DNA from: a virus
Length of the DNA stretch: 64,000 nt
IMG/VR virus record: IMGVR_UViG_3300017971_000031
Coordinates: 1-64,000 of that record
Reading direction: 5' to 3' (one strand)
Below the pieces are notes generated by a model. The model worked only from the letters and a program-made list of their open reading frames with translations. It did no database searches and was not told the DNA's origin. The position numbers were made by a program, and so were the translations under genes. Below are positions 21,203-56,367 of the stretch, in pieces (positions within the stretch are counted from its first letter, which is position 1; each line of letters begins with the position of its first letter).

Positions 21203-22426
21203 CTACCTCTTACAAGGCAACCAGCAAGTTTGACAGATGAGCTTTTGCCGTGCCTTGGGTTTGTATCCGTGGGTCTCACAATACCATTTCTTCGCCTCAT
21301 CGATATAGGGATTCGGGTTGATGACCCGCTGATTGAAGAGCTTCTCCCGGGTTTCCACAACGGGTTTCCCCGCGATATGGGCTGCAATAAGTTCAGCCAC
21401 ATACGTGCAGAACTGAACCGGCATGAATTTGCCGATCTGCTTATAGACAGCCGAATAGGTTTTGAAGTCCCTCAGGTAATCCAGCGGATAGAAAATGAAA
21501 TCATCCGGGCATCCTTGGATCCTTGCCCGTTCCCGCATGGTCAGGGGATTCAACGTGTCCTCTCTGTAGTGGTTATCGAGAGCAGATCCCCCGCCGGTCA
21601 TAACGGGGCAGGTATTGTCCAGACAGATCTTCGAATAGCCGGGTTTGAAATGCTGGACACCCTGCTTGTTGTAGTACTGAAAGTTCCGCTTTGAAGGATA
21701 ATCCCTGATGACCTCTTTGAAGTCGCCCAGGGTCACAACCTCCTTGTCTCGGGTCTCAGCGAAATTGTGTGGGCTGAACCCGTGCAGCCGATCCTTATCC
21801 TTCACATGCACGTGATTGATCTTTTTGATGTCCCTCTTCGGAGGTAGTCCTTTGAGCATATGCCGCAAATGGGTAATGTGCTCAAATTCCCCCGGGACAA
21901 AAACGAACTTTTCCTTCTTCAGTGCACCGATCATGAAGAACCGCCGACGGAAGAACTGCGAATTGCCGTAATGGTAATTCGAAATCCATTCGGGGAACAA
22001 ATCGTAGTCGGGCAGGGCCTCTTTCCATTGCTGAATTGTCCAGCCGATCAGTGACTTCGGAAGGTTGTCCTGAACGAAGAACCGTGGCTTCAGGCGATTG
22101 ACCAGTTCACAAAATAGCGGAATATCTCCCGGGTCTTTCAGCTTAGCCGTCTTGTTCGGCCTGAGGTTGGAATAGGATCCACACTCGGGATGACCCATGG
22201 CCAGATCTATCTTCCCCCGAAGAGCACGGATCTGTTTCTCATCCAGTTCATCTATCTTATGGACGAGGAATGCTCCGGGGAAATTCTCGGTGAATGTGTT
22301 CCGGCCTTGGTCGTCCTGCCAATGGTAGTATGGACGCCATTCAATATTTCCGAGGACAGTAAATCCTGCCGCTCGGGCTCCGATCAGCATCGAGCCGATC
22401 CCTGATGTTAGTCCAATTGCCCTCAT
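21203..22426 (-). CDS. Variant C5-cytosine DNA methyltransferase, 407 aa
   Basis: The start at 22426 is chosen for its AAGGAG and because motif I begins at residue 4 (GLTSGIGSMLIGARAAGF). Motif IV is GHPECGSYS with the catalytic Cys at 82, motif VI is VQDN (Asp-Asn in place of Glu-Asn), motif VIII is QFFRRRFFMIG, and motif X is IGKFMPVQFCTYVAELI. The C-terminus adds a small Cys/His cluster (CQTCWLPC). The family methylates C5 of cytosine in DNA; the changed motif IV and VI residues make altered chemistry or substrate possible. It is followed by a terminator and preceded 2 bp upstream by a second methyltransferase gene. Confidence 0.8.
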   Translation of the reverse strand: MRAIGLTSGIGSMLIGARAAGFTVLGNIEWRPYYHWQDDQGRNTFTENFPGAFLVHKIDELDEKQIRALRGKIDLAMGHPECGSYSNLRPNKTAKLKDPGDIPLFCELVNRLKPRFFVQDNLPKSLIGWTIQQWKEALPDYDLFPEWISNYHYGNSQFFRRRFFMIGALKKEKFVFVPGEFEHITHLRHMLKGLPPKRDIKKINHVHVKDKDRLHGFSPHNFAETRDKEVVTLGDFKEVIRDYPSKRNFQYYNKQGVQHFKPGYSKICLDNTCPVMTGGGSALDNHYREDTLNPLTMRERARIQGCPDDFIFYPLDYLRDFKTYSAVYKQIGKFMPVQFCTYVAELIAAHIAGKPVVETREKLFNQRVINPNPYIDEAKKWYCETHGYKPKARQKLICQTCWLPCKR

Positions 22427-22428
22427 AA

Positions 22429-23298
22429 CTATTTCTCCTTCCTGAATACCAAAATGGTTTGGTATGCCGGAACTTTGATATCCAGATCCGGAAACCGTTT
22501 GTTGTATGTGTTCATGAACAGGGTCGGCGGATAATGGGGCAGGAGCGCCATACAAACGAACTCCATCCCGAGGCCGAGAAGAATCTCCCCGTACATCTTA
22601 TGGAGCAGGTACGGGGCTTTGTTCTGAACCATGTCCTTCACGCCGATGCAGAAATGCCCGCCAGCCTTCAGCATGCCCAAGCTGTCCTCATAGATCTGCC
22701 GAATGTCGTCCCAATATTGTGGAGTTTCCTTCATCCGGCCGAGACCCTTCTGTTGCAAATAGAACGCGGTGCTGGGTTTCCCGAAGATCTTTTGATGCTG
22801 ATCCCCGGAGTACGGGGGATTGTTTACAATTAGGCCGAACTTCCTGCGACCGAGATGCTTGCGGATATCCCGTGCGTCTCCATCCACGATGTTCCACTGA
22901 ATGGACTTGGGGAGTCCCTGCTCCTTCCAGACATAGTTCACATTTGCCTGAGCATACTCGGCAAACTCCAGTTCAACACCGGCTGCACACCTGCCCAGCA
23001 TCATGGCTTCGACGGCTGTTGTCCCGACGCCAATTGTGGGATCAAGCACCCAGTCTTTCGGTTTGGAAAATTCCTGAATGCACCAGCGGGCAACATGGAG
23101 AGGAGTCTTGGCAATATGGGCGAGGTCGGCCTGTTTGTTGTAATACTGCCGGCGCTCCAGTTTGCTATACGGGGTTCCATCAGGACGGATCAGGACGCCG
23201 CGGAATGTCTTGGGCTTGCAGAAGTCACAGTTGCAGTGATAATCCTTTGGCGTCCGTTTGAGGGGCTTTACTTCAACAGTCTCAATCTCATACTTCAT
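22429..23298 (-). CDS. DNA N6-adenine or N4-cytosine methyltransferase, 289 aa
   Basis: AAGGAGG precedes the ATG. An N-terminal Cys cluster (CNCDFC, residues ~22-27) leads to motif I (LDPTIGVGTTAVEA, ~90-103) and motif IV (NNPPYS, ~159), the amino-methyltransferase signature. The order motif I before NPPY differs from beta-class enzymes, where the DPPY motif comes first. No restriction endonuclease gene is adjacent, so it is an orphan methyltransferase. It could protect phage DNA or act on an already modified base; target site unknown. Confidence 0.8.
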   Translation of the reverse strand: MKYEIETVEVKPLKRTPKDYHCNCDFCKPKTFRGVLIRPDGTPYSKLERRQYYNKQADLAHIAKTPLHVARWCIQEFSKPKDWVLDPTIGVGTTAVEAMMLGRCAAGVELEFAEYAQANVNYVWKEQGLPKSIQWNIVDGDARDIRKHLGRRKFGLIVNNPPYSGDQHQKIFGKPSTAFYLQQKGLGRMKETPQYWDDIRQIYEDSLGMLKAGGHFCIGVKDMVQNKAPYLLHKMYGEILLGLGMEFVCMALLPHYPPTLFMNTYNKRFPDLDIKVPAYQTILVFRKEK

Positions 23299-23673: not shown

Positions 23674-24102
23674 TTAGTACTCGGACCGCTGGCGGAATTT
23701 GTTGACGAGGGATTTCTTCAGATACAGCATGGCCACATCCTTCGCATCCAGACCGGACAGGATAAACAGTTCGACCATGAAGTGAAGTGCATCTGCCAGC
23801 TCTTCATAGAAGTGATCCCGGTCGGTGAGCATCTGTGTCTGTTTCCAGGGTTTGTTCTTCAGGCAGTTCATGGCTTCGCCGAGCTCCTCGGTCACTCTCC
23901 AGGCGAAGTCTTTCAGTCGGGCCTGACCCTTGGCCGAGTCCAGATCAACAGGCACATCGGGCGAAAGGAGTAGGTCATTTGCAGCCTCAATCGGATGGTA
24001 CTTTTCCATGAGTTCTTTCTGCCGATCGAAGATAGCCTCGAGCATATCTGTATCCCCGAGGAAGTCCAGAATGTCTTCATCAGTTACATCGTTGATGTTC
24101 AT
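23674..24102 (-). CDS. All-alpha NTP pyrophosphatase, dCTPase/dUTPase-like, 142 aa
   Basis: The metal-binding pattern of the dimeric dUTPase / MazG superfamily is visible: EELGEAMN (~74-81) and YEELADALHFMVELF (~99-113). Members hydrolyse dNTPs to dNMPs and pyrophosphate. In T4, gp56 of this superfamily destroys dCTP and dUTP so that only modified cytosine enters DNA. Given the hydroxymethylase-like gene in the same block, a dCTPase role is the favoured inference; plain dUTPase is the alternative. It overlaps the asparagine synthetase gene by 23 bp. Confidence 0.75.
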   Translation of the reverse strand: MNINDVTDEDILDFLGDTDMLEAIFDRQKELMEKYHPIEAANDLLLSPDVPVDLDSAKGQARLKDFAWRVTEELGEAMNCLKNKPWKQTQMLTDRDHFYEELADALHFMVELFILSGLDAKDVAMLYLKKSLVNKFRQRSEY

Positions 24103-25462
24103 AGTACATTTCCTCCGCTAATCCTTTGAATTGGTTGATTAAGTGTAGCCGCCAGCTCATTTTGTCCTGACGGATGGCTGGGATCTTCAGGGCTTCTTTC
24201 TTCCGTGCTTGTATAGCTTGGGGGACAATATCTGCAAAGGTCTTCTTCAGGATTCGCTTGTTCATACGCCTCTCGTAAGGGATCTGTAGGGCGTTATTCA
24301 CGACATCCGGGGCTAAGAACGGGCTCCTGAGCTCCACGGTACTGGCCATCATCAGCCGATCCAACCGGGGCAAATGGTAATATACCAGTTCATCAAAGAT
24401 GTCCGTGTATTGGCTGTCATACTGCGCTATACGACGGTATCCGCCGAACAGCTCATCAGCCCCATCACCTGAGATTGCTACGTCGAATCCTTCCTTCCTG
24501 ATTGCCCGACCTAACAGATATTGGGGGAGCATGGATCCAAGGTCGACTGGTGTCTGGTTTGCAGCCAATGCCCCGAGCAGATCATCCCCCTCGAGTTCAA
24601 TCTGCTTCAGTTCCACACCTGAGAAGTCAATGTAGTTCAGCCACTCAGCCTCGTCGTTGTCCACGTGGAACACGGTCAGGGGTTGGTTGGAGAATTCTCG
24701 GGTGAGGTAATACACGATTGTGCTGTCCAGTCCTCCTGATACTAATAAGGAGACTGGCACATCTGATACCAGCCGATTCTTGACTGCTTCCTCAATGGCT
24801 GTTCTGAGCTCCCGGGTAGGTTGCCGTGGCCATTGGAGATTCTGCCTGAGGATATGCTCGACTTGCAGGTTCTCCATATTCAGGATCATATGGCAGTTCG
24901 CTGGGATCTTCATTATGTTTTTGAACGGGGTGGTCTCGGCTGGGTGATAGCCCCATTTAGCAGTGGCCGACATATTGTGCTGATCCCATTCCAGCTCATC
25001 AAGGAGCAGCATCAGTGGGAGAATCTCCGAGCAGATTGCTACAGATTCCTCGGCCACCATAATGTATAGGGGTTTCTTTGCAAGATGGTCAGTGAAGATA
25101 TGGGCGCGCTTGCCCGTGATTCTGCGATGGCCGTCTATATGCACAATAGACCAGAAGCCATCAAACCACTCAAAACTCTGGATGGGAATCCTGCCCATCA
25201 TCAGATCGTGGACGGCCTCGATATCTGAGGAATAGTCCCCGAACGTTTTGTAGTTGAATATCTCTCCGACGAATAAGGTCTGATCCCGAAACGGTTGGTC
25301 AAACTCAGGATCCAATCCTTGAATAGGCAGGCGGACGTGCCCCAGGGAATAGGTCGCGAAATGTTCGGCCCGCGACCTGATCCCCCGATGGGTCATGTGG
25401 TTGATCAGGGTGAGTAGATTTTCTTCATGGTTTTTTCCGATACATAGGGCTAATCCACACAT
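24080..25462 (-). CDS. asnB: Glutamine-dependent asparagine synthetase, 460 aa
   Basis: A complete class II amidotransferase domain starts at the required Cys2 (MCGLAL), with RLPIQG (~44), GEIFNY (~66) and DGFW (~101). The synthetase domain has the ATP pyrophosphatase loop SGGLDS (242-247) and SGDGADELFGGY (331-342). It is shorter than cellular AsnB (~550 aa) but keeps the key motifs. GGAGG precedes the start. The gene overlaps the dNMP kinase by 38 bp and the NTP pyrophosphatase by 23 bp, so it is embedded in the nucleotide-modification operon. It may make asparagine for the infected cell, or amidate a carboxyl group in DNA-base modification; the second idea is speculative. Confidence 0.9.
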   Translation of the reverse strand: MCGLALCIGKNHEENLLTLINHMTHRGIRSRAEHFATYSLGHVRLPIQGLDPEFDQPFRDQTLFVGEIFNYKTFGDYSSDIEAVHDLMMGRIPIQSFEWFDGFWSIVHIDGHRRITGKRAHIFTDHLAKKPLYIMVAEESVAICSEILPLMLLLDELEWDQHNMSATAKWGYHPAETTPFKNIMKIPANCHMILNMENLQVEHILRQNLQWPRQPTRELRTAIEEAVKNRLVSDVPVSLLVSGGLDSTIVYYLTREFSNQPLTVFHVDNDEAEWLNYIDFSGVELKQIELEGDDLLGALAANQTPVDLGSMLPQYLLGRAIRKEGFDVAISGDGADELFGGYRRIAQYDSQYTDIFDELVYYHLPRLDRLMMASTVELRSPFLAPDVVNNALQIPYERRMNKRILKKTFADIVPQAIQARKKEALKIPAIRQDKMSWRLHLINQFKGLAEEMYYEHQRCN

Positions 25463-35301: not shown

Positions 35302-35502
35302 TTAGCCAATGTCCCCATTCTCCATTGCCAGCCCCATCTGAATTTCCCCGATCGGTTCTTCAGTATTCATCAGGGTAGCTGCAACCGCCTCACCCTCTGC
35401 CGAGTAGTCAGTTCCCTTGGTGGCGAACTTCATCAGTTTGGCAGCGCGCTCGATCAGTTCCTCAGCCTGTCTCATTGCCTTTTTTCGATCTTCGTATCTC
35501 AT
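35302..35502 (-). CDS. Hypothetical protein, 66 aa
   Basis: GGGAGGAAAAATG marks the start at 35502. The N-terminal half is helical and basic (MRYEDRKKAMRQAEELIERA); the rest is acidic. Its ribosome site and start codon are complementary over 16 bases, with one bulge, to the candidate small RNA at 54226-54303. Function unknown. Confidence 0.6.
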   Translation of the reverse strand: MRYEDRKKAMRQAEELIERAAKLMKFATKGTDYSAEGEAVAATLMNTEEPIGEIQMGLAMENGDIG

Positions 35503-35533
35503 TTTTCCTCCCTGTTTGATTGTTGTTGAGTGC

Positions 35534-35627: not shown

Positions 35628-35933
35628 TTAGATTTGTCGGGTGAGTTCTGTCAGATCAGACGGAATTTCGGACTGGGATTCGGTTAGCTGTTTCACAAGC
35701 TGGATCAGTTTGTGAATGTCAGGCTGGATCTGAATCAGAACAGCGCGAAGGATACAGGATTCGGCAGAATCGATAGCAAGATATCCTTCGTACAGTTCAG
35801 TTGTCAGAGTATCTAAGTCTGATCGGCTGTAGATGGTGAGCAGTTTTTTCATTTGCTCAGGAACGACGGAATCCATCTGGCTGTAGTTTTCAGAGTTGAA
35901 AAGGTCTGTCATTTCTTGAATTAGGTCAGTCAT
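35628..35933 (-). CDS. Hypothetical protein, 101 aa
   Basis: GGGAGG precedes the ATG. The protein is largely helical and acidic (MTDLIQEMTDLFNSENYSQM), with no cysteine cluster or membrane segment. It forms a single-gene unit between its own promoter (35966-35994) and terminator (35584-35619). Function unknown. Confidence 0.6.
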   Translation of the reverse strand: MTDLIQEMTDLFNSENYSQMDSVVPEQMKKLLTIYSRSDLDTLTTELYEGYLAIDSAESCILRAVLIQIQPDIHKLIQLVKQLTESQSEIPSDLTELTRQI

Positions 35934-35965
35934 TTTTTCCTCCCTTTTGAATTGTTGTTAAGTAT

Positions 35966-38894: not shown

Positions 38895-38927
38895 AAAAAA
38901 AATCGACCCCGGTTTCCCGAGGCCGAT
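38895..38927 (-). terminator. Rho-independent terminator
   Basis: On the - strand an 11-bp stem (two G-U pairs) with a GAAA loop is followed by eight T residues. It ends the operon that begins near 42.6-46.6 kb and precedes the next promoter. Confidence 0.85.
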
Positions 38928-46607: not shown

Positions 46608-46859
46608 TTACGCACGGCGTATTCCCCGTTTGTTAGGCCATTTATACGGGTCACCGCCCCTTCCTCGTCTCGGAATACCTAGGAGTTCTAATCTGTGCAG
46701 GATACAGTTGCCCGATTTGCTGAACGCCCGGCCAATCTGACTGGCCGACCATCCCCGTTTTTGATACAAATGGACTACAGCCTTAGTCGGATCTGAGTAG
46801 CCGAGGCTGGCTGCTACAATCTGTGCATCTTCTGCATACTGCCAATCGCCCTTTCTCAT
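46608..46859 (-). CDS. Small HTH-like protein, 83 aa
   Basis: GGAGG before the ATG at 46859. The middle (HLYQKRGWSASQIGRAFSKS, then GNCILHRLELLGIPRRGRG) fits a helix-turn-helix resembling short resolvase- or sigma-type DNA-binding segments; the C-terminus is basic. It overlaps thyX upstream. A DNA-binding role is inferred. Confidence 0.65.
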   Translation of the reverse strand: MRKGDWQYAEDAQIVAASLGYSDPTKAVVHLYQKRGWSASQIGRAFSKSGNCILHRLELLGIPRRGRGGDPYKWPNKRGIRRA

Positions 46860-46872
46860 TCCCCCTCCGTTG

Positions 46873-47610
46873 TTACTCCCCATAGTTAATGTCCTCGAAC
46901 AGTTCGGGCAGATACCCTTTCACTTCATCTAGCAACGGCCGCATCAGGGCACGCATCTGAGGATGGGCAGCATTGGAGGTCCTGAATTGGAAGATGTGTC
47001 TCCATTCTCTGTAGTTGGCCATATGGCAGATCTCAGTCTTGAGGGAGTTCGGCAAAACTTCACGGGCTTGTTCCGGACGCCATCCCCCTGCAATCAAATC
47101 ATTGTAATCATCTTCCGAGTCCAGACAGGAATAGACCCATATTGCATCCTGCTTTGGAATGTGATTGATTACGAGGGAATCCTCATCCATAGGATCTTCC
47201 ATTGTATGAATGAAGTAATGTCGGCTCCTTTTGTCCTTTGCAGTAGGATCTCTGCGAAAAATCTGTCCCGAGTAATCAGGCGAAAACCAGACAGGACGGA
47301 TGAACTCAATATCATCCTTTCCGCCATAGTTAACATACCGAGTGGACTCCTGAGCGAAGGACGACAGGCGGTGTCTGACTTCCTCATGGGTCACTCCGCG
47401 GTTCGTAATGAACCGAACAGTCATTACCCCGAACTCAAGCATTGCGTGGTGTCCACGGTCCCTCAGCATGCGCAGAAACTTACTCGCCGAATCATCCGTG
47501 ATCTTATCTTCAGACTTATAGCAAGTTCTGCCGATTGTTTCCATTCGCCGAATGGCGCGTCCAGGATCCTCTAGGTCTAGAATCTCATACCCTTGTTCAA
47601 TGATCTTCAT
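46873..47610 (-). CDS. thyX: Flavin-dependent thymidylate synthase ThyX, 245 aa
   Basis: The ThyX signature RHR-x7-S is exact (R79-H-R81, S89: RHRLSSFAQES). The C-terminal FRTSNAAHPQMR segment also fits. It makes dTMP from dUMP with FAD and methylene-tetrahydrofolate. It overlaps the gene upstream by 14 bp. The presence of ThyX frees the ThyA-fold protein at 20185-20901 from dTMP synthesis and supports a different role for it. Confidence 0.95.
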   Translation of the reverse strand: MKIIEQGYEILDLEDPGRAIRRMETIGRTCYKSEDKITDDSASKFLRMLRDRGHHAMLEFGVMTVRFITNRGVTHEEVRHRLSSFAQESTRYVNYGGKDDIEFIRPVWFSPDYSGQIFRRDPTAKDKRSRHYFIHTMEDPMDEDSLVINHIPKQDAIWVYSCLDSEDDYNDLIAGGWRPEQAREVLPNSLKTEICHMANYREWRHIFQFRTSNAAHPQMRALMRPLLDEVKGYLPELFEDINYGE

Positions 47611-49909: not shown

Positions 49910-50122
49910 TCACTGGATAACCTGTACGTCTGATTCTATCACTTCTTTGATCAGACCGGCTTCGGCATCGATTAGGCCAACGATGAATTTAGGATCCTTG
50001 ACAGCGGATCCGTCCTCGTCTGGAAATTCGAGGATCTCTGTTGCAATGACCCCGGGCGGAAACTCAGGTTTGAATTTGATATCGCAGTCCTTAACTTTCA
50101 CTGTGATTCGTATCTTCAGCAT
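49910..50122 (-). CDS. Hypothetical protein, 70 aa
   Basis: GGAGAG precedes the ATG at 50122. Beta-like N-terminus (MLKIRITVKVKDCDIKFKPE) and acidic C-terminus. It overlaps the gene upstream by 32 bp. No family recognised. Confidence 0.55.
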   Translation of the reverse strand: MLKIRITVKVKDCDIKFKPEFPPGVIATEILEFPDEDGSAVKDPKFIVGLIDAEAGLIKEVIESDVQVIQ

Positions 50123-50483
50123 GGTCTCTCCTGGCGATTTTGCGCAGCCGTTTCCTGAGCTTGGCCACCGCTGATTCATATGAAGGATCAGGATCCTTTG
50201 TATTTCGTTTGTGCTTGCGGAACAGTTCGTGCGACCTGTCTATTTCGCTTCTGAGAACAAACTGGATGGAATTCGGATGCGTGGGTGGGCTGAGATGATG
50301 GCTGCGTTCAGGGTAGGGATAAGACCCGTAAGTTGCGATCGTGATAGTTTGGTTTGTATCATCGATCAGGATTCCTGTCTTGAGCGGTGGCGGACAGTCA
50401 TAAGGGTAAACTCCGTCTTTCAGACCTAGCAGTCTTACAATGGCCTTGTGCTTACGGGGTGACAGCAAATTACAAGGTTGCAT
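50091..50483 (-). CDS. Hypothetical protein, 130 aa
   Basis: AGGAGA before the ATG. The first part is beta-like (LLGLKDGVYPYDCPPPLKTG); the C-terminus is basic and helical (KLRKRLRKIARRDHAED), possibly nucleic-acid binding. It overlaps its upstream neighbour by 14 bp. No family recognised. Confidence 0.6.
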   Translation of the reverse strand: MQPCNLLSPRKHKAIVRLLGLKDGVYPYDCPPPLKTGILIDDTNQTITIATYGSYPYPERSHHLSPPTHPNSIQFVLRSEIDRSHELFRKHKRNTKDPDPSYESAVAKLRKRLRKIARRDHAEDTNHSES

Positions 50484-50940
50484 ATCTCATCTCCTCTCGT
50501 TTGATCTGTTCTACTTTGATTCGGGTTAGCTGATGAAGAATCATCTGGTTGCGGGCGGTGTTATAGAACAGCCAGCGTTTTGCTCCTCGCTGGTCAGCCA
50601 TCCCGTGCCAATCTGCTATCATCTGGTAGATATACCTCATTGGCATTGGGACAGGTTCTTGCTTGCTCCCGTTCACCGCGACCCAATAATTCCAGTGGTG
50701 TTTGTTTCTGTTTTGATGATGGTTCCATGCCTTCTGAAATCTGAGTTCACGCCGTTTCTCTTCCCGAGCGTTTGCGGTCGGTTTACCATAGAACTTATCC
50801 GCGTACGCGAAGAATTCCCGAGGGGAGAACTTTGACAGATCATGGGTGATGGCGTGGATCCATAAACCGTCTGTAAAACATACTTTGCCAACGTACCATT
50901 TGTGCTTCAGGATGTACAGAAGATATCGCAAATATTTCAT
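50470..50940 (-). CDS. DUF5662 family protein, 156 aa
   Basis: The sequence has the family pattern: LKHKWYVGKVCF, then HAITHDLSKFSPREFFAYA, then FQKAWNHHQNRNKHHW. The many His residues with HD suggest an HD-like metal site, but no activity is established for the family. It overlaps the SNF2 gene by four bases. Confidence 0.82.
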   Translation of the reverse strand: MKYLRYLLYILKHKWYVGKVCFTDGLWIHAITHDLSKFSPREFFAYADKFYGKPTANAREEKRRELRFQKAWNHHQNRNKHHWNYWVAVNGSKQEPVPMPMRYIYQMIADWHGMADQRGAKRWLFYNTARNQMILHQLTRIKVEQIKREEMRYATL

Positions 50941-54005: not shown

Positions 54006-54055
54006 TTGTCTGTTCCTTTCGTCCTGCGTTACTCTTCCTCCCGATCTTCCCCCTT

Positions 54056-54084
54056 GTTATACCACAAAGAAATTATTCTGTAAA
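54056..54084 (-). promoter_or_regulatory. Sigma-70-like early promoter of the HTH gene
   Basis: On the - strand: TTTACA, 17 bp (GAATAATTTCTTTGTGG), TATAAC. The spacer is identical to that of 37921-37949. Behind it is an inverted repeat (ATCACGGG with CCCGTGAT). Confidence 0.78.
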
Positions 54085-54190
54085 CCATTAATCACGGGAG
54101 AAGGATCCTTGCCCTTGTCCCGTGATCAGACCCGCGCAGCGGGTCATTTAAGGCTGGCCAAGGCCACCCTCAAATTACTGAAAAAAGGGG

Positions 54191-54219
54191 TTTACAGATC
54201 CCCCGACCCGTGGTATACA
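54191..54219 (+). promoter_or_regulatory. Early-type promoter on the + strand
   Basis: GGGG-TTTACA at 54191-54196, 17 bp, TATACA at 54214-54219, with an A-rich block (AAAAAAGGGG) upstream as in the early cassettes. It is the only one of the series that points to the + strand. Confidence 0.72.
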
Positions 54220-54225
54220 AGGAAC

Positions 54226-54303
54226 CATGATGGACGACGGGCTTTACCACATCTCATTTCTTCCTCCGGCGGAAGGCCTCTCGGGAAACCGAGGGGCCTT
54301 TTT
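54226..54303 (+). ncRNA. Candidate small regulatory RNA (~78 nt)
   Basis: The promoter at 54191-54219 and the strong terminator at 54275-54303 delimit a transcript of about 78 nt. It contains ATCTCATTTC and TTCCTCC (54251-54267), the complement of early ribosome site plus start codon sequences; with 35302-35502 it could form 7 and 9 bp around a one-base bulge. The CTTCC/GGAAG pair (54260-54275) could form a small second hairpin that shields part of this. A short frame from the ATG at 54227 runs past the terminator, so coding is unlikely. Confidence 0.6.
54275..54303 (+). terminator. Rho-independent terminator of the small RNA
   Basis: A 10-bp stem (GGCCTCTCGG with CCGAGGGGCC, one G-U pair), a GAAA loop and five T residues. 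Near-ideal intrinsic terminator. Confidence 0.9.
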
Positions 54304-54318
54304 GCTTCTGCAAAAGAG

Positions 54319-54722
54319 GCATACGGGGGTTACGGCCCACCTCAAAAACACCCCAAATACAACCTACTGAAATCATTTCATAAAATCGGCACGAGCATAC
54401 GGCCGTATGCTGGCCGTATGCCGCCCCGTATGCCGTTGGGGTAAATTCTCAAGTGACTGATATCATTACAGATCCGCTCAAAAACGGGTCGCCGATTCCC
54501 CTCGATTCACTGCATCAGACAGTATACGCGTGAAAATGGATTCGGTGAAAAAATTTTTCAAGAAATCCATTTTGGCCGTATGCCCGTATGCTTTTGGGAA
54601 TAATCAGTGATGATGCTAAATTGTTGATCGTCCAACGTCCCGTGATCATTACTGATATACGCGTGGGACCGAAATTGGAAACGGCATACGGGCAGGCATA
54701 CGGCTGGCATACGGCCGTATGC
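54319..54722. repeat. Iteron cluster GCATACGG / CCGTATGC (11 copies)
   Basis: The 8-mer occurs at 54319, 54395, 54403 (inverse), 54414, 54426, 54576, 54584, 54684, 54696, 54707 and 54715. Two pairs form perfect palindromes (54395-54410 and 54706-54723); the last is followed by TTTTT. Chance would give about 0.01 copies in this span. Binding array for an initiator or regulator is inferred. Confidence 0.85.
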
Positions 54723-54942
54723 CTTTTTCCTCGATTATTGGTGGAATGGATATAGAATTGTGGTTTATCTCCCCAGATCCTTATCCCACGCGAATTCTGA
54801 ACTGAAGAAAAGAGTTTCTGCTCTTTTCCCTCTACGCGCGTATAATCGCGGGCACGATCCTATTAGATGTCGGGGATCTGTTCAGATCAGCCACCTAGGT
54901 AGAAAATCTATATGTGGATTTTATTGCGGATATGACCGGGCT

Positions 54943-55084
54943 GGGCTGATCCCACAATTAGGTCCTAACTAAGGACATATATCCCACGGATATGACAGAA
55001 AAATGGGTGGACAGGGCTGATCCCACAATTAGGTCCTAACTAAGGACATATATCCCACGGATATGACAGAAAAAAGGGGTGGAC
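54943..55084 (+). repeat. 71-bp tandem duplication
   Basis: Positions 54943-55013 and 55014-55084 are the same sequence except for one substitution or insertion near the end. Each copy contains GGGCTGATCCCACAATTAGG, a phage-wide recurring motif, and the palindromic GGTCCTAACTAAGGACA. Confidence 0.9.
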
Positions 55085-55137
55085 AGGACTGGCCGACTGT
55101 GGTATGGATGTGTATCAATCCAGTAAGTAATTGGATT

Positions 55138-55220: not shown

Positions 55221-55862
55221 ATGGCCAAAAAACCTGCTAAGAAATCAGATCAGAAACCAAGACCTCGGAAGAGAGGACCTGGGCGGCCTAAAGGCTCGCG
55301 GCCTAAAGGTCCTCCGAGAATTCCCAAAAAGGTCCTCTTTCGGGAGATGCTGGTCAAGTATATTGCCGATCCGAAGAATGAGTTTCCTACCCGTACGCAG
55401 ATGGCCACTGAAGTTTGCAAGACCACTGTTGGCAATTTCTACAAGCACTTCAACTTGGAAGAGATGCTGGAGATAGAACAGGAAGGATTTGACCTCAGGC
55501 AGAAAGCTCGGCTTCGGAACCTGACTCAAGTTTACGATGCGATGGAAGCAGCCGCGACAGGGTTCGAGCATGATGCCGTCCATATTTCACAATTCCAGGG
55601 ACAGGTCATTGAAACCCCGATCACGAAGAAGTATAAGCCAGATCCGGCCGCGGCCAGCTTACTGATGGACAGGCTGCAAGGCAAGGTACCTAGCAAGACT
55701 GAACTAACCGGAAAGGACGGGGCACCATTAGGGGCTGGCGTCCTCCCAATTGCCGCTTTGGACCTGACCTTATTGGATGACGATGAATTAGCTTTGGTTG
55801 AGAAGATCGGCATGAAACTCCTGAAGGCCAAAGAGGATGAGGAGCAGGGTTCTTCCTCATAA
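55221..55862 (+). CDS. terS: Terminase small subunit, 213 aa
   Basis: The start at 55221 gives a basic N-terminal tail (KKPAKKSDQKPRPRKRGPGR) followed by an HTH (FPTRTQMATEVCKTTVGNFY), then a helical oligomerisation part and a C-terminal TGKDG segment typical of small terminases. It recognises the packaging site on phage DNA and loads the large subunit. The gene precedes the large terminase, but three long tandem repeats separate them. GGAACT or TCGGA are only weak ribosome sites, so an upstream TTG start at 55197 remains possible. Confidence 0.85.
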   Translation: MAKKPAKKSDQKPRPRKRGPGRPKGSRPKGPPRIPKKVLFREMLVKYIADPKNEFPTRTQMATEVCKTTVGNFYKHFNLEEMLEIEQEGFDLRQKARLRNLTQVYDAMEAAATGFEHDAVHISQFQGQVIETPITKKYKPDPAAASLLMDRLQGKVPSKTELTGKDGAPLGAGVLPIAALDLTLLDDDELALVEKIGMKLLKAKEDEEQGSSS

Positions 55863-56367
55863 GGTCGCCAGTTGATTTCGATCGTCGTAAATGTGCAAAC
55901 ATAAGTCCTTATAATGATTGCATATTTTGCAACACCATTTTCAGAATCTTGACCGGTGGTCGACCTTTTCAGAAAACCTTGACCCACTACGAAGACCAGG
56001 GTTAGGATTCTGATCCCCCGCAAGGAACTAAGGTCGCCATCTGATTTCAGTCGTCGTAAATGTGCAAACATAAGAGACTGTAATGATTGCATATTTTGCA
56101 ATACAGTTTTCAGGATTTTGACCCGAGGTCGGGGTTTTCAGAAAACCTTGACCCACTACGAAAATCAAGGAATCTTGACCCACTACGAAGATCAGGGTTA
56201 GGATTCTGATCCCCACGAGGGATTAAGGTCGCCAGTTGATTTCAGTCGTCGAAGATGTGCAAACATAAGGTATTGAAATGATTGCATATTTTGAAACTTG
56301 ATATCTAGGATTTTGACCCAAGGTCAAGGTTTTCAAGAAACCGTGACCCACTACGAAAAAGGTCGGT
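55861..56367 (+). repeat. Three long tandem repeats between terS and terL
   Basis: Copies begin at 55861, 56030 and 56225 (AAGGTCGCCA or AAGGTCGCC start; 169, 195 and ~143 bp). Each carries TGTGCAAACATAAG, a TATAATGATTGCATATTTTGC-like segment and GACCCACTACGAA. The second has an internal duplication of the last element; the third is cut off by terL. No gene is visible. Position fits a packaging (pac/cos) site or a regulatory leader. Confidence 0.85.

Follow-up and report, generated by a model that had tools for sequence, protein, structure and literature searches.

The window analyzed here (bases 1–64,000 of the 78,051-base record of an uncultivated bacterial virus) carries two gene blocks that point in opposite directions. 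A leftward (−) early block at ~17–54 kb holds replication and nucleotide functions, including a SNF2-type helicase, a UvrD helicase, a primase, DNA polymerase A, and ThyX, while a rightward (+) late block from 55.2 kb encodes terminase, portal, protease, and capsid, its first gene being that of the terminase small subunit (55221–55862, +). The candidate RNA unit sits in the ~1.2-kb non-coding control stretch that has these early and late blocks on either side. Elsewhere in the window, ThyX and ThyA-like thymidylate synthase genes occur in the same phage (46873–47610 and 20185–20901), with two DNA methylase genes (21203–22426 and 22429–23298) and an asparagine-synthase-like gene (24080–25462) near the thymidylate synthase genes, a combination that may relate to DNA modification.

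The unit begins with an early-type promoter on the + strand (54181–54219), which comprises an A6G4 element, a −35 box TTTACA (54191–54196), a 17-nt spacer, and a −10 box TATACA (54214–54219), and reads, in order, AAAAAAGGGG, TTTACA, 17 nt, and TATACA. The −10 box is weak (four of six matches to TATAAT), and a TG one base 5′ of it helps. The family of this promoter has 14 scored sites in the 78-kb record. Of these, 13 point leftward and precede early genes, leaving the 54191 promoter as the sole full family match pointing right. The family module consists of AAAAAAGGGGTTTACA followed by a TATA-like box, and a scan of other viral contigs for the 16-mer AAAAAAGGGGTTTACA returned, among the matches listed, 83 distinct sites whose downstream sequence was long enough to examine. 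A TATAAT-like box (at least five of six positions) lay 15–17 nt downstream in 54 of the 83, 31 of those 54 being perfect TATAAT, and about 0–6 such boxes were seen at most other spacings. Because the boxes are concentrated at this spacing, we take AAAAAAGGGGTTTACA to be a real promoter module. Together with TATAAT, it recurs across many otherwise unlike viral contigs (L005–L118); this phage promoter module is widespread, and its A6G4 element is fixed.

About 50 nt past the inferred RNA start, on the same strand as the promoter, lies an intrinsic terminator (54269–54303, +) with a 12-bp stem (54269–54299), a GAAA loop, and a short U run, i.e., AAGGCCTCTCGG, GAAA, CCGAGGGGCCTT, and then TTTGC, with a folding energy of about −24 kcal/mol. 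Few hairpins in the record are as strong, though on the other strand a similar one, GGCCTCGGGAAACCGGGGTC, has its end near 38902. The run after the stem amounts to just three T, a length that argues against a classical Hfq tail. A generic promoter/terminator scan listed neither the 54191 promoter nor the 54269 terminator; the promoter–terminator unit that the earlier note had placed on the + strand of this divergent region is nonetheless there, with a promoter from a family of 14 and a stable hairpin. The unit would yield a small RNA of ~78 nt (54227–54305, +), its start near 54226–54228 being deduced from the −10 box, and it has the attributes of a small-RNA gene: its own promoter, an intrinsic terminator, a predicted length within ~50–300 nt, and no conserved reading frame. 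A leaderless peptide from the AUGAUG at the 5′ end of the RNA was considered and rejected, as the frame passes through the terminator without a stop.

A divergent member of the promoter family (54055–54084, −) drives the leftward operon, and its leader contains, near 54041, GGAGGAAGA, which complements the candidate RNA perfectly over 9 nt. This may be an additional target or may have arisen by chance, as a 9-mer complement of this kind also occurs in 36 of 2000 shuffles. Between the divergent promoters lies an inverted repeat, ATCACGGGA...TCCCGTGAT, which is a possible regulator site, as is the direct repeat GTCCCGTGATCA at 54117–54128 and 54637–54648.

The 5′ half of the predicted RNA folds weakly. 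The antisense seed AUCUCAUUUCUUCCUCCG (54251–54268, +; reverse complement CGGAGGAAGAAATGAGAT) is complementary to the Shine-Dalgarno sequence and start codon of early genes, and mirrors, in antisense, a phage consensus ribosome site of GGAGGAA, 3–5 nt, and AUGAGA. When 94 gene starts were ranked by accessibility-corrected pairing, the top four were 46608–46859 (rank 1; predicted target in its ribosome site and start, 46850–46875, −), 35302–35502 (rank 2; ribosome site and start, 35486–35513, −), 50091–50483 (rank 3; ribosome site, 50480–50500, −), and 22429–23298, and the ribosome site and start of 35628–35933 (35925–35946, −) ranked sixth. The two pairings described in the earlier note proved exact, namely 7 + 9 pairs around one bulged base for 35302–35502 (partners GGAGGAA and AAATGAGAT) and 14 positions with one mismatch for 35628–35933 (partner GGAGGAAAAAATGA). 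Seventeen of the 20 best pairings use the seed or fall inside it, and most span the Shine-Dalgarno sequence and the AUG. Pairing is stronger for leftward than for rightward genes (p 0.003, and p 0.03 once Shine-Dalgarno strength is corrected for). The predicted targets gave no family match.

Pairing exceeds chance once the accessibility of both partners is considered. Gene starts were picked by a simple script, and the final chance test, which was fixed after several variants had been tried, takes account of the opening energies of both partners in 18-nt windows at the 94 gene starts and is the form closest to IntaRNA. The best and second-best energies were −17.8 and −16.9 kcal/mol, compared with −9.8 and −8.6 kcal/mol in shuffles, and the top-five mean was −13.7 kcal/mol. 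For the best, second-best, and top-five mean energies, respectively, equal or better values were reached by 3, 0, and 0 of 1000 dinucleotide shuffles; among 500 random genome segments, and likewise among 150 CCTCC-bearing segments, the counts were 0, 0, and 1. By contrast, when the entire 42-nt 5′ part was run against 108 gene starts with plain RNAduplex, the result was not significant (p 0.11–0.15) and 35302 ranked ninth. Scoring by the longest contiguous helix gave mean and top-ten energies better than ~99% of shuffles, but not a better best target; it showed no advantage over CCTCC-bearing genomic fragments, a control that includes true ribosome-site antisense, and ranked 35302 22nd. A 24-nt core, chosen post hoc, had a mean energy better than 300 of 300 shuffles and, in its preference for ribosome sites over internal mRNA, beat 200 of 200 pyrimidine-rich and 150 of 150 CCTCC-bearing segments. 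As a correction for this post hoc choice, every sequence was allowed its own best 24-nt window, and the ribosome-site preference of the candidate was then −5.05 kcal/mol, versus minima of −2.70 kcal/mol among 150 shuffles and −4.01 kcal/mol among 200 genomic segments. With accessibility counted, the largely unpaired seed thus complements ribosome sites better than chance would give, a result that plain RNAduplex on the whole 5′ part did not reproduce. The earlier note had asked whether the pairing is better than for shuffled sequences; in the accessibility form it is (better than 997 and 1000 of 1000 shuffles), so the candidate survives that challenge there, but the plain form does not support it.

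These results also bear on whether the unit specifies a short transcript without a role in trans, e.g., a spacer or transcription insulator with a coincidental seed. The plain RNAduplex result and the occurrence of CCTCC alone in ~2.6% of 42-nt windows would suit such a transcript, as would the lack of detected conservation in phage records, viral contigs, and L130/L137 (described below), but the accessibility-corrected test gives only ~1–3 per 1000 and the ribosome-site specificity exceeds that of CCTCC-bearing controls, and we find this account highly improbable.

The true antisense of real ribosome sites matches the score of the RNA in 6–15% of cases. Since the RNA beats shuffles and genome segments and is about level with true antisense, it scores as a genuine anti-ribosome-site sequence. 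Such a score could arise on the opposite strand, where GGAGGAAGAAATG opens a 21-codon frame, MRCGKARRPSWFLVYHGSGDL, so that the + RNA would look antisense to ribosome sites in general; the complementarity would then be the shadow of a minus-strand ribosome site, or the + RNA a cis-antisense regulator of that frame. The Shine-Dalgarno sequence and ATG at 54257 on the minus strand are indeed well spaced, and the RNA scores like the antisense of real ribosome sites; of the 30 GGAGG-N3-7-ATG sites in the record, 21 are listed gene starts. However, the frame is only 21 codons long, its end falls within the + promoter, and none of the family promoters reads it; the weak TTCACC/TATACT match at 54549–54521, the only one found upstream, sits behind a −30.6 kcal/mol hairpin followed by a T run at 54385. 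The likeness to the 35302 gene also ends after ~17 nt, and we assign this origin of the complementarity a low probability.

Directly 3′ of the terminator are 12 GCATACGG/CCGTATGC sites (54318–54723), in an array that contains 43-nt inverted arms and ends in a second + strand terminator hairpin. The 12 sites fall within ~400 bp, compared with two elsewhere in the 78 kb, and the array is a candidate replication origin, operator array, or partition site. Further downstream, two 70-bp direct repeats with palindromes (54938–55108) were observed. After the second comes a promoter-like site at 55080, AAAAAAGGGGTGGACA...TATGGA (TGGACA/TATGGA), a degenerate relative of the early promoter and a candidate late promoter. 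Past these, the interval separating the terminase small- and large-subunit genes is occupied by three 149-nt direct repeats (79–82% alike; 55847–56359), a possible packaging or control site. As the array, the 70-bp repeats, the degenerate promoter, and the terminase small-subunit gene all adjoin downstream, an origin-linked or late-leader role for the unit is possible.

In an origin-linked layout resembling that of lambda OOP, the RNA or its transcription would serve an origin formed by the GCATACGG array. The concentration of sites in 54318–54723, the inverted 43-nt arms, and a cumulative GC-skew minimum at 54–55 kb are consistent with this, but the skew tracks gene direction too, operators or a partition site would account for the array just as well, and the RNA ends 14 nt short of the first repeat without crossing the array. 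An origin transcript would also leave the antisense seed unexplained, and we regard it as quite unlikely.

Lambda 6S RNA arises from pR′–tR′, a promoter–terminator pair upstream of the late operon, and the candidate likewise places a promoter and a terminator 5′ of a late operon. The unit might accordingly be a late-operon leader with a regulated terminator, the short RNA being a by-product until an antiterminator lets polymerase reach the terminase and structural genes. The 54191 promoter would suit this role as the lone full-strength family promoter pointing right, and the block downstream opens with the terminase small subunit, followed by the terminase large subunit, portal, protease, and capsid. 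Here the late operon lies 0.9 kb on, and, unlike at lambda pR′–tR′, a second terminator stands between and there is a nearer late-promoter candidate. That second + strand terminator (54724) is strong, ~900 nt of non-coding DNA intervene, and the 55080 site is the better late-promoter candidate. No antiterminator gene was noticed, and the non-random antisense seed would again be left unexplained, making a late leader unlikely in our view.

Searches for conserved copies covered several levels. Phage records gave no DNA-level match to the RNA region, viral contigs held no exact copy of the seed–terminator junction, and Rfam covariance models gave nothing at the gathering score (the top model, sX12, reached 19.7 bits, the cut-off being 106). 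Among the matches listed, the other viral contigs carrying the 16-mer AAAAAAGGGGTTTACA had no promoter–terminator unit (≤100 nt) of similar strength. Relatives were found via terminase, capsid, and portal, and none via the HTH gene, primase, or helicase. Two of them, L130 and L137, have portals 58–69% identical and reach the corresponding divergent region; their large terminase is merely 32% identical, so the terminase module has possibly been exchanged. Neither such a promoter nor a terminator was found in the divergent region of L130 and L137, and a comparable unit was absent from all relatives reaching that region (L130, L137, L131, and L158). The nearest of these have portal identities no higher than 69%, so conservation of the unit does not extend to that distance, L130 and L137 being without promoter and terminator there.

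Weighing these lines of evidence, we tentatively favor, at a little less than even confidence, a stand-alone phage small-RNA gene whose product would act in trans as an antisense repressor of several early genes. Host RNA polymerase would start at the early-type promoter (54191) and stop at the 54269–54303 hairpin to give the ~78-nt RNA, and the seed AUCUCAUUUCUUCCUCCG would then pair in trans over the Shine-Dalgarno sequence and start codon of a few early mRNAs, with 46608–46859 and 35302–35502 as the best targets and 50091–50483 and 35628–35933 next. Such pairing would block 30S binding and thereby repress the early genes; we infer from these features that the transcript exists, finds its partners in the cell, and acts as a repressor. 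Because its 5′ end is antisense to their start signals, the RNA may switch early genes off. Counting against this, the putative targets are driven by the same promoter type as the RNA, so RNA and targets would be made together and not sequentially. An early-translation shut-off, as first suggested in the earlier note, draws support from ribosome-site pairing beyond shuffles and from the early-gene bias (p 0.03), but a conserved copy was not found. The accompanying suggestion that the RNA mimics the anti-Shine-Dalgarno sequence is weak, as the overlap with the 3′ end of 16S rRNA amounts to CCUCC alone, while complementarity to the targets instead runs on downstream of the Shine-Dalgarno sequence into the start codon; with the overlap limited to CCUCC, we do not favor it. 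An antisense regulator of early translation is thus plausible from the sequence. More doubtfully, though still a real possibility, a generic anti-ribosome-site seed would turn down a group of early genes of the same phage simultaneously, as an RNA counterpart of T4 RegA.

Known systems supply parts of this picture. In phages, the antisense RNAs sar (P22) and c4 (P1/P7) occlude the ribosome site of ant (PMC12197685), and like them the candidate is a small phage RNA for which a translation block by pairing around a ribosome-binding site is proposed. Sar and c4 each act on one mRNA, in lysogeny or immunity, whereas several unlinked early genes are predicted for the candidate, which shows no sequence relation to them (no Rfam match at the gathering score). 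Lambda OOP is likewise a short RNA with its own promoter and a strong terminator near the replication region, but it overlaps the cII 3′ end on the opposite strand as a cis-antisense RNA (PMC12197685, PMC5869508), whereas the candidate overlaps no normal-size gene (an OOP-type overlap with an opposite-strand protein gene was not found, only the 21-codon frame) and has its predicted targets elsewhere. In Firmicutes, RoxS/RsaE and FsrA also direct a single-stranded C-rich stretch at many Shine-Dalgarno sequences; these are chromosomal, serve host metabolism, and have several C-rich regions (PMC10433868), whereas the candidate is phage-borne and has one pyrimidine-rich seed that covers the start codon too. 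T4 RegA does the job proposed here, competing with ribosomes at many early mRNA starts (PMC3014915), but is a protein, whereas the candidate would be an RNA.

We would class the unit within the known general kind of phage antisense RNAs, as a candidate that is unusual for its several predicted self-targets. The reviewed phage antisense RNAs that block ribosome sites each act on single mRNAs (PMC12197685), and broad translational repression of early genes is known from a protein, T4 RegA (PMC3014915). If the proposed role is true, one short RNA would coordinate the repression of several early genes by way of the sequence that their ribosome sites have in common. The analysis also shows that promoter–terminator pairs in phage control regions can be screened for antisense seeds, with accessibility correction, against the gene starts of the phage itself.
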